From NCBI RefSeq assembly GCF_000174435.1, contig NZ_ACJN02000003.1:326263-390262 (forward strand): 64,000 nt of DNA. Reading direction: 5' to 3'. Numbering within the stretch: the first letter of the stretch is position 1; the number at the start of each line of letters is the position of its first letter. The stretch comes from Desulfonatronospira thiodismutans ASO3-1 (GTDB taxonomy: Bacteria > Desulfobacterota > Desulfovibrionia > Desulfovibrionales > Desulfonatronovibrionaceae). Positions 41,915 to 64,000 of the stretch are shown one piece after another. The notes beneath the pieces were generated by a model. The model searched no databases, had not been told where the DNA came from, and was given only the letters and a program-made list of their open reading frames with translations. Made by a program: the position numbers and the translations under genes.

Positions 41915-42527
41915 AACCCTCCTTGCTTCTCTTGGGCCAAGCCAGTGGTGGCCGGGAGAGACTCCTTTTGAAATCTGCGTGGGGGCTGTTCTGACTCAGA
42001 ACACCAACTGGTCCAATGTTCAAAAGGCCATTAACAACCTGAAAAGCCGCGACCTGCTGCACCCCGAAAAAATGGCCTCTCTGGACGACGAGTTACTGGC
42101 CGAACTCATCAGGCCATCGGGCTATTTCAGGATAAAGGCCCGCAGGCTCAAGAATCTGCTGGAGTTTCTGCGCCTGGAATGCGCTTATCATCTCCCGGAT
42201 CTGTCCAGCCAGGACCTGCAGCAGCTCAGAGACAAACTGCTGCAGGTAAAAGGCATAGGCCCGGAAACAGCTGACAGTATCCTGCTGTATGCCCTGGAAA
42301 AGCCAAGCTTTGTAGTGGACGCCTATACCAGTCGCATACTCAACAGGCATTTGCTGGTACATGAAGATATCGATTATCATGAACTCAGAGATTTTTTCAT
42401 GGACCGCCTGCCCAGGGATGTGGCACTATACAACGAATACCACGCCCTGCTGGTGCGAACCGGCAAAAAGTGGTGCAACAAGAACAACCCCCGGTGCGAC
42501 GGATGTCCGCTGGGATCGTATTTATAG
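41880..42527 (+). CDS. Endonuclease III-like DNA glycosylase, atypical
   Basis: This protein of up to 215 aa (GTG at 41880; 208 aa from the ATG at 41901, which fits the family start MHFYETLL better) has the HhH-GPD fold. Signs: GETPFEICVGAVLTQNTNW, the helix-hairpin-helix LLQVKGIGPETADSILLYAL, and the catalytic Asp in VVDAYTSRI. The lysine of bifunctional Nth (in LPGVGRKTA) is replaced by Glu, and of the four Fe-S cysteines only three are found (CNKNNPRCDGC, then a stop). It therefore looks like a monofunctional glycosylase of a distinct subgroup, with substrate unknown. Confidence 0.85.
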   Translation: MSSSTLLMHFYETLLASLGPSQWWPGETPFEICVGAVLTQNTNWSNVQKAINNLKSRDLLHPEKMASLDDELLAELIRPSGYFRIKARRLKNLLEFLRLECAYHLPDLSSQDLQQLRDKLLQVKGIGPETADSILLYALEKPSFVVDAYTSRILNRHLLVHEDIDYHELRDFFMDRLPRDVALYNEYHALLVRTGKKWCNKNNPRCDGCPLGSYL

Positions 42528-42631
42528 TAAATACCAGGGTGACAACTATTTATCTCTTGAACAAAAATCTTTTCCCGGGAGTTCTAAATACCATTGACAA
42601 GGCTCCTGCCGGTATAAAAAATACAGCAGGC

Positions 42632-43741
42632 ATGCTTCCAGGCTTTTCTTTGCTGATCATTTTGCTGCTGTGTTTTATCATGCTCCCCGGGCCCGCTCCG
42701 GCCTCTCATCCCGAGGATATTGAATCCGAAATTGAAAGCCGCAGGGAAGAGGTCAGCGAACATAAACGCACCCTGGATCGCCTGAGTACCAGGGAAAGAG
42801 AAGTCTATTCCCGGCTGGCCGAAACTGAAGACAGGCTGGACGAAATCTCCAGGGATCTGCAAAACCAGGAAGAGAAGCTGGCAGACCTGCAGGCCAGGGA
42901 AGCAAGGATATTCCAGGAATACCAGGATCTCAGCCGGGAAAGGGACAAAACCAGGTCCAGGGCCCGAGACATCATGGCCGACCTGTGGCCCATATACATA
43001 GAAAGCCGCAGTCAGGGACTGGCCGATATGCAGGACTGGGCCGAAATGGACCGTCAGGTTCAATGGCTGAGGGCCATCCACCAGGAAATGAACATCACCC
43101 TGGCCCGGCTGCATGAGCAGACCAGGCAGATCACGGGGAGGCTGGCTGATCTGCAGAGCGCCAAGGAGGATTTCGAGGATCAGCTTGGAGATGTCAACGC
43201 GCTGAAAGACCGGCTGCTGGAAAAAAAGCTGAAATTTGTCCGGGAACTCCAGGAAATAAGGGCTGAAAAACTGGCCAGGGAAGAGATGGTGGAAGAAATC
43301 ATGGATGTAATCGAATCCTTGAACTACCGTCTCAAGGTGGTTACCGAAAGAGAATTTGAGGAACTTAAAGGACATCTGCCATGGCCTGCCAGCGGCGAAG
43401 TCAAGATGTCCTTCAGTCCTTCGGACAGCCCTCCCCACAACGGCAAGAGCATTTCCCTGGAGGAGAATGCACCGGTCAGGGCCATTTCATGGGGCAAAGT
43501 AGTGCATAATGATACCTTGCGCGGTTTCGGCAGAGTGGTTATTATTTTTCATGGAGATGACTACTACTCGCTTTATGCCTACCTGTCCGAAAGCACCGTC
43601 GCCATAGGCCAGGATGTGGAACAGGGTGAAACCATCGGCAAGGCAGGATATTACCCGGAAATAAATACTCATGGCATATATTTTGAATTGCGTTTACAGC
43701 AAAAACCTATTAATCCTGATGACTGGTTGAGCAAGTCATGA
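42632..43741 (+). CDS. EnvC/LytM-type coiled-coil protein, probable amidase activator
   Basis: The frame is open from 42470, but only the ATG at 42632 gives a normal signal peptide (LPGFSLLIILLLCFIMLPGPAPA), for about 369 aa. Residues 30-260 form a long coiled coil of the EnvC type (REEVSEHKRTLDRLSTREREVYSRL and further heptads). The C-terminal M23 (LytM) domain is degenerate: the HxH zinc site reads HGIYFE and the LYAHLS block reads LYAYLS. This indicates an activator of murein amidases used in cell separation. The gene precedes a CtpA-type protease gene, an arrangement widespread in proteobacteria. Confidence 0.82.
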   Translation: MLPGFSLLIILLLCFIMLPGPAPASHPEDIESEIESRREEVSEHKRTLDRLSTREREVYSRLAETEDRLDEISRDLQNQEEKLADLQAREARIFQEYQDLSRERDKTRSRARDIMADLWPIYIESRSQGLADMQDWAEMDRQVQWLRAIHQEMNITLARLHEQTRQITGRLADLQSAKEDFEDQLGDVNALKDRLLEKKLKFVRELQEIRAEKLAREEMVEEIMDVIESLNYRLKVVTEREFEELKGHLPWPASGEVKMSFSPSDSPPHNGKSISLEENAPVRAISWGKVVHNDTLRGFGRVVIIFHGDDYYSLYAYLSESTVAIGQDVEQGETIGKAGYYPEINTHGIYFELRLQQKPINPDDWLSKS

Positions 43742-43787
43742 CAGCTCTTCCAGCCTTGAGATGTGTCTGCAAAAAATTAACAAAAAC

Positions 43788-43925
43788 GTATCATGTCAGC
43801 GCTTTTAAGGAAAGCAGGGGACAGGCACCCCCGCACTTATTTTTCTGTAGGCTGATTGACGGGTTTTAAAAATAAGTGCGGGGAGAGCCAGTCCCCATGC
43901 CACATGCAAAGCGCTGACATGATAC
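43788..43925. mobile_element. MITE-like nested palindrome with 8-bp target duplication
   Basis: The ends are perfect 18-bp inverted repeats (GTATCATGTCAGCGCTTT at 43788-43805 and its complement at 43908-43925). Inside are GGGGAC/GTCCCC and a second perfect 16-bp pair (CCCCGCACTTATTTTT, 43829-43844 / 43868-43883). The flanks are identical 8-bp direct repeats, ACAAAAAC (43780-43787 and 43926-43933), as expected of a target-site duplication. It carries no gene and lies between the envC-like gene and the ctpA gene. Confidence 0.8.
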
Positions 43926-43996
43926 ACAAAAACAGCTGATCACCAAAGCTTGATATGCTTTGCCATACCCCAAACAAAAATATTCTGGAGGCAATA

Positions 43997-45277
43997 ATGC
44001 GTATAAACCACCTGATAGGTACAATTGCAATTCTGCTGCTCCTTACTGTTGCCCCCTGGACCAGCCAGGCCAGGGACAACGATATGGACAGCCTCAAAAT
44101 GTTCAGTGAGGTCCTGCATCTCATTGAAGACAACTATGTAGAAGAAAAAGACCGGGAGGATCTCATCCGGGGAGCCATCCAGGGGATGCTGCGCAACCTT
44201 GATCCCCACTCCTCCTACGTAGACCTGGATCAGCTCAGGATGATGCAGGAGGATTTTGAAGGCAAGTTCGGAGGCATAGGCATCCAGATAGGCATCCGGG
44301 ACGGCAATCTTGTGGTCATCTCACCCATAGAGGGCACACCGGCCTACGAAGCAGGTCTTGAACCCGGGGACGTGATCATGGAAATTGAAGGGGAGCCCAC
44401 CCAGGACATGGCCCTTACAGACGCAGTAAACAAAATCCGCGGCCCCAAGGGGGAGCCCGTAGAACTGACCATCCTCTCTGAAGGCTCTCAGAGCCCTGAA
44501 AAAGTAAAAATCGTGCGCGACGATATACCGGTGCACTCAGTCAAAAGCCAGGAACTGGAATCAGGATACCTGCACCTGCGCATCACTGACTTCAAGGCCA
44601 CCACCACCGAAGACCTCAAGGAGGAAATCCGCAAGTACTCTTCGGAAAAAGAGATCAAGGGCATTGTTCTGGACCTTAGAAACAACCCCGGAGGCCTCCT
44701 GGACCAGGCTGTTTCAGTTTCCGACATCTTCCTGGATGACGGACTCATCGTCTATACCCAGGGCCGCGAAGAAGCGCAGCGCAAGGACTATTCAGCCACC
44801 AGCAGCGCCGAGGACGTTACTTCCCCCATGGTGGTCCTCATCAACGCCGGATCTGCCTCAGGTTCTGAAATCGTGGCCGGGGCCCTGCAGGACAGGAACC
44901 GTGCCCTGCTGCTTGGGGAGCCCACCTTCGGCAAGGGTTCGGTGCAAAGCATCCTCCCCGTGGCTGACGGGTCGGCCATCAAACTGACCATAGCCAACTA
45001 CTACACTCCCGACGGACGCTCCATTGAAGCCGAAGGTGTAGCACCGGACATTCATATTCCCCACCGGGTTGATGCAGTTGATGAAGATGAACAGCAGCAG
45101 GAAATGCAGGAATCCATGATGCAGTTTCACATTGATCAGCCGGATGAAAGGCCTGACGACGAGGAAGAACGCTATTCCGAGGAAGTGCAGAAACTGCTGG
45201 ATGAGGACAACCAGTTGCGCATGGCCCTGGAACTGCTGCGTTCCATGCCCAGAATACAGGAACTGAGCTACAACTGA
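43997..45277 (+). CDS. ctpA: C-terminal processing peptidase (S41 family)
   Basis: From the ATG at 43997 (GGAGG 6 nt upstream) this is 426 aa with a signal peptide or anchor (IGTIAILLLLTVAPWTSQA). A PDZ domain (residues about 85-165, GGIGIQIGIRDGN) precedes the serine-protease core: LRNNPGGLLDQAV, NAGSASGSEIVAGAL (nucleophile Ser in SGSE) and the catalytic Lys in FGKGSVQ. It cleaves C-terminal tails in the periplasm. The acidic Gln/Glu-rich tail (ADEDEQQQEM-like region) is unusual but common in deltaproteobacterial members. It is downstream of the EnvC-like gene across the MITE. Confidence 0.93.
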   Translation: MRINHLIGTIAILLLLTVAPWTSQARDNDMDSLKMFSEVLHLIEDNYVEEKDREDLIRGAIQGMLRNLDPHSSYVDLDQLRMMQEDFEGKFGGIGIQIGIRDGNLVVISPIEGTPAYEAGLEPGDVIMEIEGEPTQDMALTDAVNKIRGPKGEPVELTILSEGSQSPEKVKIVRDDIPVHSVKSQELESGYLHLRITDFKATTTEDLKEEIRKYSSEKEIKGIVLDLRNNPGGLLDQAVSVSDIFLDDGLIVYTQGREEAQRKDYSATSSAEDVTSPMVVLINAGSASGSEIVAGALQDRNRALLLGEPTFGKGSVQSILPVADGSAIKLTIANYYTPDGRSIEAEGVAPDIHIPHRVDAVDEDEQQQEMQESMMQFHIDQPDERPDDEEERYSEEVQKLLDEDNQLRMALELLRSMPRIQELSYN

Positions 45278-60267: not shown

Positions 60268-60375
60268 GAAGCCCACCACCCAAGTAACTCCTGGCCACGG
60301 TAAATCTCCCCTCCTTAACCCAGGAGGAGAGCACATCGAGGGACGGCAACACTCTGTCGCATGCATCTGTCGTGT
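60268..60375. repeat. Repeat family copy C, rearranged
   Basis: A related segment in which the order is swapped: the CCACCCAAGTAA...CCACGGTAAATCTCCCCTCCTT part comes first, then GGAGAGCACATCGAGGGACGGCAACACTCTGTCGCATGC-like sequence. It lies directly in front of the IS66-type element and is more diverged than A and B. Confidence 0.65.
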
Positions 60376-60450
60376 CTTTCCGGCAAGCCTGCGTGAAAAA
60401 TTTGAGGGCCTGGGGTACTATCGGTGACCAAACCATAAGGAGGACAACCG

Positions 60451-60789
60451 ATGCTACAGCAATCAGCCCCAGCCACCCGGCCAGGCCTTGAAGAAGTCAA
60501 GAGACAGTTCGAGCACTGGCGGGAAACCAGACACACACGATCTCCGATTCCCAACCACCTATGGGCCAGTGCAGTCAGCCTTGCCCAGGATTATTCCATC
60601 TGCAAAATAGCAAAGGTCTTGCACCTCAATCACAGCCACCTCAAAAAGCGGGTCCAGGCCGAGCAGGCTCAAGAGTCCCTACAGCCAGGTCCTTCCTTTG
60701 TTGAATTTGAACTCACGTCATCTTTGCCTTGCACCGATATCACCTGGAGACCGAAGCTCGAGATGGATCAAGCTCAAAATGCAGCTTAA
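60451..60789 (+). CDS. tnpA: IS66 accessory protein TnpA
   Basis: This 112-aa protein is Arg-rich and has a putative helix-turn-helix (YSICKIAKVLHLNHSHLKKRVQ, residues about 49-70), as found in IS66 orfA products. It has an excellent ribosome site (AAGGAGG 7 nt upstream). It is the first gene of the element. It probably binds the element's DNA or partners TnpB; neither function is proven in the family. Confidence 0.8.
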   Translation: MLQQSAPATRPGLEEVKRQFEHWRETRHTRSPIPNHLWASAVSLAQDYSICKIAKVLHLNHSHLKKRVQAEQAQESLQPGPSFVEFELTSSLPCTDITWRPKLEMDQAQNAA

Positions 60790-60846
60790 AGGTCCAGACC
60801 TGCCTAATCCCCTTGAGATCCTCTCGGCTTTCTGGAGCAAAGGGGC

Positions 60847-61209
60847 ATGATTCAGCTCACTCCCCAGATGCGCATCCTTGTAGCTGTGGAGCCTGTTGAT
60901 TTCAGAAAAGGGATCGACGGGCTGACAAAAATCTGCCGGCAGAGGATCAAATCAGATCCCTTTTCAGGCTGCGTCTTTGTATTTTGCAACAAAAAGAAAA
61001 CAGCCATCAAGATAATCACCTACGATGGCCAAGGCTTCTGGATGTGCCAGAAGCGATTATCCCAAGGCAGGTTTCAGTGGTGGCCTGATAAAAGCCAGAG
61101 TGGCATTTGTCCTCTGGCAGTCCATGAGCTGCAGCTTTTGATCTGGAACGGCAATCCTCAAAATGCGCAGGTTGCACCACAATGGAGAAAAATTCTCACG
61201 GAATTTTAA
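60847..61209 (+). CDS. tnpB: IS66 protein TnpB
   Basis: At 120 aa it has the diagnostic IS66 Orf2 sequence: PVDFRKGIDGLTKICRQRI, CVFVFCNKKKTAIKIITYDGQGFWMCQKRLSQGRFQWWP. TnpB is required for IS66 transposition along with the large transposase TnpC, but its biochemical role is not clear. It precedes the DruA-like gene by 45 bp. Confidence 0.92.
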   Translation: MIQLTPQMRILVAVEPVDFRKGIDGLTKICRQRIKSDPFSGCVFVFCNKKKTAIKIITYDGQGFWMCQKRLSQGRFQWWPDKSQSGICPLAVHELQLLIWNGNPQNAQVAPQWRKILTEF

Positions 61210-61254
61210 CTTAGGGGCTTGCGTTCCTATCCGTTTTCCTCTATATTCCCTCCC

Positions 61255-62133
61255 ATGCAAACGATACTGAGATACAGGGGCAGGGACATCACAGAAGAAG
61301 ATGTCCGGTTCATCAGACAGCTCATTTTCGAGCATCCTGGAGACAGCCGGTGGGCCTTGTCCAAAAAGCTCTGCACAGCATGGAACTGGGTCCAGCAAAA
61401 CGGCCAACTCAAGGACATGGTCTGCAGGGGGCTCATGCTGGCCCTGCACAGACAGGGGCACATAATTCTTCCGCCGGCACAAAAAGTAACTGCCACTGGG
61501 TACAATCGCAAAGAACCAGTCTCGGTTCAGGTGGATCAAACCCCACTTACATCTTCACTCAAGGACATCACCCCTCTTGAGTTTCGACAGGTGCGCAAGA
61601 CACCTTTTGAGGGCCTGTTTTCCAGCCTCCTCAAGGAGCATCATTATCTGGGCTACACCCAGCCTGTGGGCGAGCACCTCAAGTACCTGGTCTTTGCAAA
61701 CAAGCAGCCCATAGCCTGTCTTTCCTGGTCTTCAGCTCCAAGGCATATCGGCGTCCGGGACAATTTCATCGGCTGGACCCAAAAAGACAGGGAAAAGAAT
61801 CTCTTTCTTATTGCCTACAACAGCAGGTTCCTCATCCTGCCCTGGATCCAGGTCTCCTGCTTGGCCTCCCATATCCTGGCCCAAATGACCAAGATTGTGC
61901 AAAGGGACTGGGAGAGCATCTACAAGCATCCGATATATTACCTGGAAACCTTTGTTGATCAAGAGCGCTTCAAAGGAACCTGTTATTTTGCAGCCAACTG
62001 GCTCTATCTCGGGCAGACTACAGGCCGGGGCAAAAACGACCACACAGGCAAAGCAAACCGTTCACTCAAGGCTGTCCTGGGCTATCCCCTGACCCGAGAC
62101 TTTCGGAAGCGATTGCGGGGGCTCAACCGGTGA
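61255..62133 (+). CDS. DUF4338 / DruA-like protein carried in the IS66 element
   Basis: From the ATG at 61255 this is 292 aa (TTG at 61219 possible). It has a helical N-terminus (LIFEHPGDSRWALSKKLCTAWNW) and a second domain with HHYLGYTQPVGEHLKYLVF and IACLSWSSAPRHIGVRDNFIGW. A C-terminal block YLETFVDQERFKGTCYFAANWLYLGQTTGRGK matches the DUF4338 family. DUF4338 includes DruA, the defining protein of the Druantia anti-phage system, but relatives also occur in IS elements. It is placed between tnpB and tnpC, with its TGA overlapping the GTG of tnpC, so it is part of the transposition operon and not a full Druantia system. Confidence 0.85.
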   Translation: MQTILRYRGRDITEEDVRFIRQLIFEHPGDSRWALSKKLCTAWNWVQQNGQLKDMVCRGLMLALHRQGHIILPPAQKVTATGYNRKEPVSVQVDQTPLTSSLKDITPLEFRQVRKTPFEGLFSSLLKEHHYLGYTQPVGEHLKYLVFANKQPIACLSWSSAPRHIGVRDNFIGWTQKDREKNLFLIAYNSRFLILPWIQVSCLASHILAQMTKIVQRDWESIYKHPIYYLETFVDQERFKGTCYFAANWLYLGQTTGRGKNDHTGKANRSLKAVLGYPLTRDFRKRLRGLNR

Positions 62134-63722
62134 AAAAGAAAGTCCAATCCATCGATCTGGACCAAGAGCAGATCGACGCCCTTTTACAGCGCGCATCAAA
62201 AAACGAGCTGGAAGAGACAGATCTGGATATCATCAAAGCCTTGGTCCAAGCCATCCAGCTTTTGCATCAGGCTGTGGACGATAAAGCTGCCTCCATCAAG
62301 CGTCTCCTGCGCACGATCTTTGGCGCTTCTTCAGAGACAAAAAAGAAACTGTTCCAGGAGGATGACCAGCAAAACAAGGACCAGAAGAGTAGTCAAGATC
62401 CTGTACAAAAGCCTCCTGATGAAAAACCACCCAAGGGACACGGCCGAAACGGAAAAGACGACTATACCGGGGCTGCAAAATGCATATACCCTCACCAAAC
62501 CCTGAAGCCGGGCGATATCTGCCCCTTGTGCGGTCAAGGAAAAGTCTATCCCATAAAACCGAAGTTCCGCATTCGGATTACAGCCACAGCTCCACTTACA
62601 GCCAAGATCCATGAGCTTAAGAGCCTTCGCTGTAACTGCTGTCTCGAGGTGTTCACCGCAGATCCTCCAGAAGACATTGGAGAAAAAAAATACGACGAAC
62701 CTGCCCGGAGCATGATCGCCATCTTGAAGTACGGGAGCGGGTTTCCTTTTCATCGCTTGGAAAAGCTCCAGGAATCTCTGGGCATACCCCTGCCGGCCGC
62801 AACACAATGGGATCTGGTCGAACAAACTGGAACACAGCTTCTTCCTGTGTATGATGAACTCATCCGCCAAGCGGCTCAAGGTGAGGTCGTGCATAACGAC
62901 GACACCAACATGAAAATCCAGCAGCTTATCAAGGAGAACAAGGAAGCCGGGCCGAAAAGAAAAGGCATGTTCACCACCGGGATTGTCTCTGTACTTCAGG
63001 GACGCCATATTGCTCTCTTTGCCACCGGCAGACAGCATGCGGGGGAGAATCTGGAGGAGATTCTCAAAAAAAGAGACCACAACCTGCCCCCGCCAATACA
63101 CATGTGTGATGCCCTGGCCCGAAACATTCCCAAGGGCTTACAGATCATTTTAGCCAATTGCCTGACCCATGGCAGACGCAACTTTGTCGATATCCTGGAC
63201 AATTTCCCTGATGAGTGCCGGTATGTCATTGAACAGCTGGCTATTGTCTATAAAAATGATGACATGGCCAAAAAGCAGGAGATGTCTGCTCAAGAACGGC
63301 TTGTATGGCATCAACAGGAAAGCGCACCGGTTATGAGCGAACTCAAGTCCTGGGCCTGGGCCCAGCTGGAGGAGAAAAAAGTAGAGCCCAATTCAGGATT
63401 GGGCAAAGCCCTGGCTTACATGCAAAAACACTGGGATCCTCTGACTCTTTTTTTGAGAGAACCAGGTGCTCCCCTGGACAACAATATCTGCGAACGTGCC
63501 CTGAAAAAAGCCATCCAGCACCGGAAGAATTCTTTATTTTACCGCACCCTGCGCGGGGCCAGGATCGGCGATCTGTTCATGAGCTTCATTCATACCTGTC
63601 AGCTTAACAAAGTGAACTCCTTTGACTACCTGACCCAGCTTCAGAAAAACATAGAAGAGGCCCTCGCGGCTCCACAAAAATGGATGCCCTGGAACTATCG
63701 AGAAAACCTCCCCAACGAATAA
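62130..63722 (+). CDS. tnpC: IS66-family transposase TnpC
   Basis: This 530-aa DDE transposase starts with GTG at 62130. A leucine-zipper-like N-terminus (QEQIDALLQRASKNELEETDLDIIKALVQ) and a basic linker lead to a zinc finger (CPLCGQGKVYPIK; CNCCLEVF). The DDE catalytic part follows: EVVHNDDTNMKI, HMCDALARN and, at the end, NNICERALKKAIQHRKNSLFYRTLRGARIGDLFMSFIHTC with the catalytic Glu. It is apparently intact and thus potentially active. Confidence 0.95.
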   Translation: MKKKVQSIDLDQEQIDALLQRASKNELEETDLDIIKALVQAIQLLHQAVDDKAASIKRLLRTIFGASSETKKKLFQEDDQQNKDQKSSQDPVQKPPDEKPPKGHGRNGKDDYTGAAKCIYPHQTLKPGDICPLCGQGKVYPIKPKFRIRITATAPLTAKIHELKSLRCNCCLEVFTADPPEDIGEKKYDEPARSMIAILKYGSGFPFHRLEKLQESLGIPLPAATQWDLVEQTGTQLLPVYDELIRQAAQGEVVHNDDTNMKIQQLIKENKEAGPKRKGMFTTGIVSVLQGRHIALFATGRQHAGENLEEILKKRDHNLPPPIHMCDALARNIPKGLQIILANCLTHGRRNFVDILDNFPDECRYVIEQLAIVYKNDDMAKKQEMSAQERLVWHQQESAPVMSELKSWAWAQLEEKKVEPNSGLGKALAYMQKHWDPLTLFLREPGAPLDNNICERALKKAIQHRKNSLFYRTLRGARIGDLFMSFIHTCQLNKVNSFDYLTQLQKNIEEALAAPQKWMPWNYRENLPNE

Positions 63723-63845
63723 TCTCCTCCACGCCAAGCCAGCGCAATATCAACAGACCCTCCTCCTGGACCTTGAGTCATGGAGGAGGTGTCTCAACTT
63801 GTGCTGTGATAACCGAAAATTGACCAGCCCCTGAACTGGCCCTCC

Positions 63846-64000
63846 AAGCAAAGCCTACGCCAGCTGCCGTGAAATTTTTTCTGCTTACGCACGTCTGCCG
63901 AAAGTACACATACAAAGGCCCTTTCAGGCATTGCCGGTACCAGACATTTCAAGGCCAACCAGATGATTTTCCAGGAAAACGATCCCGGTGAGGGATTTTA
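63846..64000. other. Sequence to the window edge, no gene seen
   Basis: About 150 bp beyond the apparent end of the IS66-type element. No supported reading frame, RNA or repeat; the neighbouring gene probably starts outside the window. Confidence 0.4.

Follow-up and report, generated by a model that had tools for sequence, protein, structure and literature searches.

A gene-less, multicopy MITE between two peptidase genes of Desulfonatronospira thiodismutans, with ends resembling those of ISBst12-type IS66 elements and a core hairpin shared with a second MITE family

The window analysed here, a stretch of 64,000 nucleotides from Desulfonatronospira thiodismutans ASO3-1, comes from a sulfur bacterium of soda lakes and carries a short, non-coding element between two co-directional genes for an M23 and an S41 peptidase (Table 1). 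The element proper covers 138 bp (43788-43925) when the flanking duplications are excluded, and it consists of terminal inverted repeats, subterminal arms, and a core hairpin, the inner arms of which pair at 16 of 16 positions. Direct reading and a repeat search reproduced the 18-bp ends, the 8-bp duplication, and the nested palindrome described in the first-pass annotation, each at the same position. The whole strand folded far more stably than its shuffled versions, with z-scores of -10 as DNA and -12 as RNA, and none of 200 shuffles folded as well. Among open reading frames of at least 80 amino acids, no gene belonging to the element was found; the sole overlapping frame is a spurious one of 98 amino acids that enters the next gene. 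A search of Rfam with the element returned only weak miRNA-like hairpin scores and nothing meaningful, and plasmid and phage collections contained no match to it.

Table 1. Features of the element and its surroundings (window positions), and examples of the second MITE family
Feature	Position	Strand	Evidence and remarks
M23 peptidase gene, upstream context	42470-43741	+	Pfam PF01551, E 1.3e-20
Left target-site duplication copy ACAAAAAC	43780-43787	+	Read in the sequence; exact 8-bp duplications, mutually different, at 33 genome copies
Left terminal inverted repeat GTATCATGTCAGCGCTTT	43788-43805	+	18/18 complementary to the right repeat
Left subterminal arm TAAGGAAAGCA	43806-43816	+	Kept among the copies read
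80-bp core hairpin GGGGACAGGC...GCCAGTCCCC	43817-43896	.	Inner arms 43829-43844/43868-43883; common to the second MITE family
Right subterminal arm ATGCCACATGC	43897-43907	+	Kept among the copies read
Right terminal inverted repeat AAAGCGCTGACATGATAC	43908-43925	-	Repeat search, 18/18
Right target-site duplication copy ACAAAAAC	43926-43933	+	Read in the sequence
S41 (CtpA-like) peptidase gene, downstream context	43997-45277	+	Pfam PF03572, E 2.1e-56; GGAGG before ATG; start 43997
Second MITE family, examples in own genome	L017 2970-3049; L018 3045-3124; C1:17095-17244; C3:610804-610952		

The first-pass annotation had proposed searching the genome for the end sequence, and many further copies were found. 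The copy counts derive from searches and fetched loci of the own genome: the 154-bp query gave 52 BLAST matches, the end pattern GTAWCWGTTYAGCNC with one mismatch occurred at 144 places compared with 3 for a reversed control pattern, and at least 57 elements with both arms were present among the fetched loci. Exact 8-bp duplications flank 33 copies, all 33 being different and without a strong motif; because these pairs were picked for having a duplication and matching ends, the number counts intact copies and does not give a rate. About 30 fetched copies constitute a subfamily of 151 bp with a different core (CTCCGGGACCCACTTGAGC...), and their near-identity indicates a recent spread. The copy in the window belongs to the CCCCGCACTTATTTTT-core subfamily, which is older and more diverse. 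End matches numbered 550 in the sister Desulfonatronospira genome G006 and 222 in G010, a member of another genus, and none were found in the more distant genera among the relatives' genomes searched. This recently active family has a new sequence but is of an ordinary kind, and its description documents a large MITE family for Desulfonatronospira and relatives.

Several variants of this architecture were also observed. An extra palindrome, CTCCGGGCTGTATGCCTCCGGGCAGGAAGCC, lies in the right arm at C3:257682 (L014), C2:634985 (L015), C2:491712 (L138), and C1:769166 (L156). Hairpins of 41 to 42 bp made of two MITE ends alone occur at L298 1355-1395, L283, L292, and L279 (G006); one of them keeps a nearly intact 8-bp duplication, and they are perhaps collapsed copies. 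More MITEs with GTAACTGTTCAGC ends but different cores, among them GGACCCCGGATCTGGTCCGGGGTGACG and TCGGTATCGG repeats, were seen at L197, L212, L217, L220, L221, C2:122468, C2:170110, and C4:100309, with 8-bp duplications wherever both ends were located.

We compared the joined flanks of 18 copies with relatives in search of empty sites. The site of the copy at C2:687808 is empty to the exact base in G005, where TTCCAGTT is present once, and single target copies were also found for C1:59269 in G002, C3:152979 in G006, and C2:836142 in G002, the last insertion being common, with identical flanks, to G006. Empty sites with a single target, which had been suggested as a check, are thereby at hand for four copies other than that of the window, one of them base-exact; at the window site, the spacer in relatives is too diverged to display a single ACAAAAAC, and the element is missing there. 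The copies, the differing duplications, and the empty sites bear out the earlier view of a transposed MITE-like unit. The nested palindrome, which had been counted as evidence of transposition, is instead a separate module.

The element has what characterises MITEs, being short and non-coding, with terminal inverted repeats, duplications of constant length, dispersed copies, and empty sites (at other copies); elements of this kind are well known, and the family is a new one among them. The Chunjie MITE of Geobacter uraniireducens, from a different genus, is comparable in description: it occurs in 38 copies, 178-235 bp in length and mostly intergenic, in which inverted and direct repeats are conserved (PMC10969869). 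QMITE2 of Coxiella burnetii is also a MITE, with direct repeats of 7-9 bp, inverted repeats of 23-29 bp, and a REP palindrome in the core (PMC10969869), but it differs in sequence and host, and its REP occurs in one MITE family whereas the core in the window occurs in two.

We consider the element to be a non-autonomous MITE mobilised in trans, most likely by an IS66 transposase of the single-ORF, ISBst12-type branch, the gene of which lies outside the element (probability of about 0.8). Such a transposase would recognise ends of ~18 bp with the pattern GTAWC-WGTTYAGC and join them to a target site, the two strands of which are cut 8 bp apart; repair would then generate the 8-bp duplication. 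We infer both the identity of the acting transposase and that the element was cut or copied as DNA. The link to this group is drawn from the ends of the MITEs and the length of their duplication, both of which resemble those of ISBst12-type IS66 elements. Direct repeats of 8 bp are the rule in the IS66 family (PMC11946415), and ISDge4, a member of the ISBst12 group, is bounded by GTGACTACTCAGCA/GTAACTGCTCAGCA and an 8-bp repeat (PMC12898284). The group shares 8-bp direct repeats with the MITEs and has ends of the GTAAC-TGCTCAGCA type (PMC12898284), which the MITE ends resemble to a varying degree; its elements are 1.4-1.8 kb long with a transposase gene, whereas the short, gene-less element in the window starts with GTATC. 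Three single-ORF IS66 elements, more distant than the plasmid ones named below, carry 8-bp duplications; their ends are GTAACTGCTCAGCAC in Deinococcus, GTATCGGCTCAATAA in Nostoc, and, differing between the two sides, GTAACTATTCAGCC and GTAACTATTCACCC in Geobacillus. A single-ORF IS66 element with DruA in G006, the GTAACTTCTCAATAGTTC ends of which are perfect and the duplication of which measures 8 bp, is inserted within a MITE of the window family; its kin, the Caballeronia, Allochromatium, and Serratia plasmid IS66 elements, have GTAACTTCTCAATAA or GTAACTTCTCA ends and 8-bp duplications.

The end sequences of the MITE group include GTATCTGTTTAGCGCTTT and GTAACTGTTCAGCAC, with GTATCTGTCAGCGC and GTAACAGTTTAGCC as further variants in the family, and related MITEs in the same genomes have GTAACTGTTCAGCAC at one end and GTAACTGTTCACC at the other, an AGC/ACC asymmetry identical to that of the Geobacillus element. 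Judged by sequence, the end group would fit ISBst12-type IS66 elements, including this asymmetry. The ends of the Deinococcus element are matched at 14 of 15 positions by the GTAACTGTTCAGCAC relatives, at 11 of 15 by GTATCTGTTTAGCGC, and at 9-10 of 15 by the window copy. The two ends within one element are alike at 16.1 of 18 positions; exchanging ends at random between elements lowers this to 13.5, and none of 10,000 such shuffles reached the observed value. Both ends of the window copy carry an unusual ATGTCAGC where the consensus has CTGTTTAGC. Several points count against the IS66 link: the low identity of the window copy's ends to those of the Deinococcus element, its GTAT start where classical IS66 has GTAA, the lack of an autonomous element in the searches described below, and the production of 8-bp duplications by other transposases as well. 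A DDE_Tnp_IS66 transposase gene is absent from the element, and it should therefore be called mobilised like IS66 and not a member of IS66. The IS66 guess of the first-pass annotation gains support at the level of the group, through the likeness of the ends to those of the ISBst12 type. By its ends, this MITE family would be connected to ISBst12, a branch of IS66 that has received little study and the transposition of which has been directly observed only recently (PMC12898284).

No autonomous element with ends GTATCTGTTYAGCGC turned up, whether in the own genome, at the IS66 loci of relatives, or in a filtered scan that took one genome from each of 84,980 species. Nearly all matches of the genome-per-species contig scan were MITE variants in a Desulfonatronospira MAG, and end patterns without the MITE arms revealed no parent in six genomes. 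The full transposase-bearing element with the same ends that had been anticipated as the parent was accordingly not found in these searches. Since autonomous partners can be missing from a genome, a partner is not required, and the status of the element as a MITE is unaffected. Two IS66 types of the own genome were rejected as parents because their ends differ, namely the classical type A (2483 bp, 9 copies, ends GTAAGCGTCCA) and type B with DruA (~3.5 kb, ends GTGTC/ACTTTC-GGC), one element of which occupies 60370-63910 of the window. The earlier remark that the ends are unlike those of the window's IS66 element was correct and extends to both types. The DruA-bearing elements considered as parents were likewise ruled out by their ends.

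The same MITE might have been moved by a transposase of another family that makes 8-bp duplications, such as the IS1595, ISL3, IS256, or ISAs1 types. The lack of a parent in the searches and an ISAs1-type element in the genome lend this some weight, but in that element the ends are CAGGGCCAATTT and the duplication measures 10 bp, and the MITE ends resemble those of ISBst12-type IS66, with the same duplication length; we therefore regard another family as unlikely, and an ISBst12-type transposase acting in trans as the better account.

The core common to two families is the sole unusual part of the element. Several BLAST matches end precisely at the limits of the core (query 38-117), which identifies it as a discrete module. 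The second MITE family has ends CACTACAGCGAAACTTAT and exact 4-bp NTAN duplications in 13 of 15 cases, and 14 of the 15 contain the GGGGACAGGC core or a variant, the remaining one having only GGGGACAGTCCCC. In a hybrid at C1:490627-490715 (L016 3028-3116), the left arm of the first family and the right arm of the second are joined via the shared core. For a MITE mobilised by its outer ends, the inner GGGGACAGGC...GCCAGTCCCC hairpin would be cargo and dispensable for defining the element. The core was probably exchanged between the two families at the palindrome, through recombination or template switching, either of which would explain the exchange without a special enzyme. More tentatively, and with some doubt on our part, the hairpin could be a cassette that passes whole from one MITE family to another, the families using different transposases, with 8-bp and 4-bp duplications; if so, these genomes would build MITEs by combining ends and hairpin cores that are each interchangeable. 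The shared core and the hybrid copy suggest that MITE cores may be exchangeable, which bears on the origin of gene-less elements.

The sharing of the core by two MITE families whose ends differ, together with ~30 Y1_Tnp matches in the genome, might also be taken to mean that the inner hairpin is the mobile unit, a REP-like palindrome that a Y1 (RAYT) transposase spreads and for which the outer repeats only provide a landing platform. REP sequences and REPINs mobilised by RAYT do resemble the core, as short, palindromic, multicopy hairpins without genes, but the window element has outer transposon-type ends and 8-bp duplications, and the Y1 genes of this genome are without the motif. Around the 30 Y1 loci read, the core motif appeared once, in a separate complete MITE ~0.4 kb away; moreover, the outer ends and not the core set the duplications and empty sites, and nearly no stand-alone cores were found. 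Spread by RAYT is thus highly improbable, and for the insertion at the window site it is largely refuted.

The orthologous M23-S41 gene pair occurs without the element in five relatives, and in G002 its spacer is only ~55 nt. A chance inverted repeat, or an immobile hairpin that regulates the peptidase gene pair or terminates its transcription, as the position between co-directional genes and the stable fold could suggest, is refuted by the dozens of copies with other neighbours, differing duplications, and empty sites, by the five relatives, and by the finding of neither a promoter-like sequence in the element nor a terminator-like site on its + strand. The insertion of the MITE widened the gap between the two peptidase genes, and a transcript of the element would form a very stable hairpin. 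The element probably has no host function; the S41 peptidase gene downstream might be subject to a polar or spacing effect.

DruA (PF14236), familiar from Druantia, an anti-phage system, was encountered beside or fused to transposases of several unrelated kinds, namely IS66 (two types), ISAs1-type, and Tn5-type, the fusions measuring 606 aa with the ISAs1-type and 760 aa with the Tn5-type (3 copies). This pattern suggests an accessory module used by insertion sequences in general, and a literature search for DruA in such a role found no paper. The DruA sites are window 61543-63563 (type B IS66), L267 1471-3263, L269 2848-5127, L274 1881-3698, and L277 637-3114. The ISAs1-type element with a DruA domain at C1:663217-665143 (L022/L267) is inserted in the end of a MITE of the window family, with a 10-bp duplication, GGTATCTGTT.
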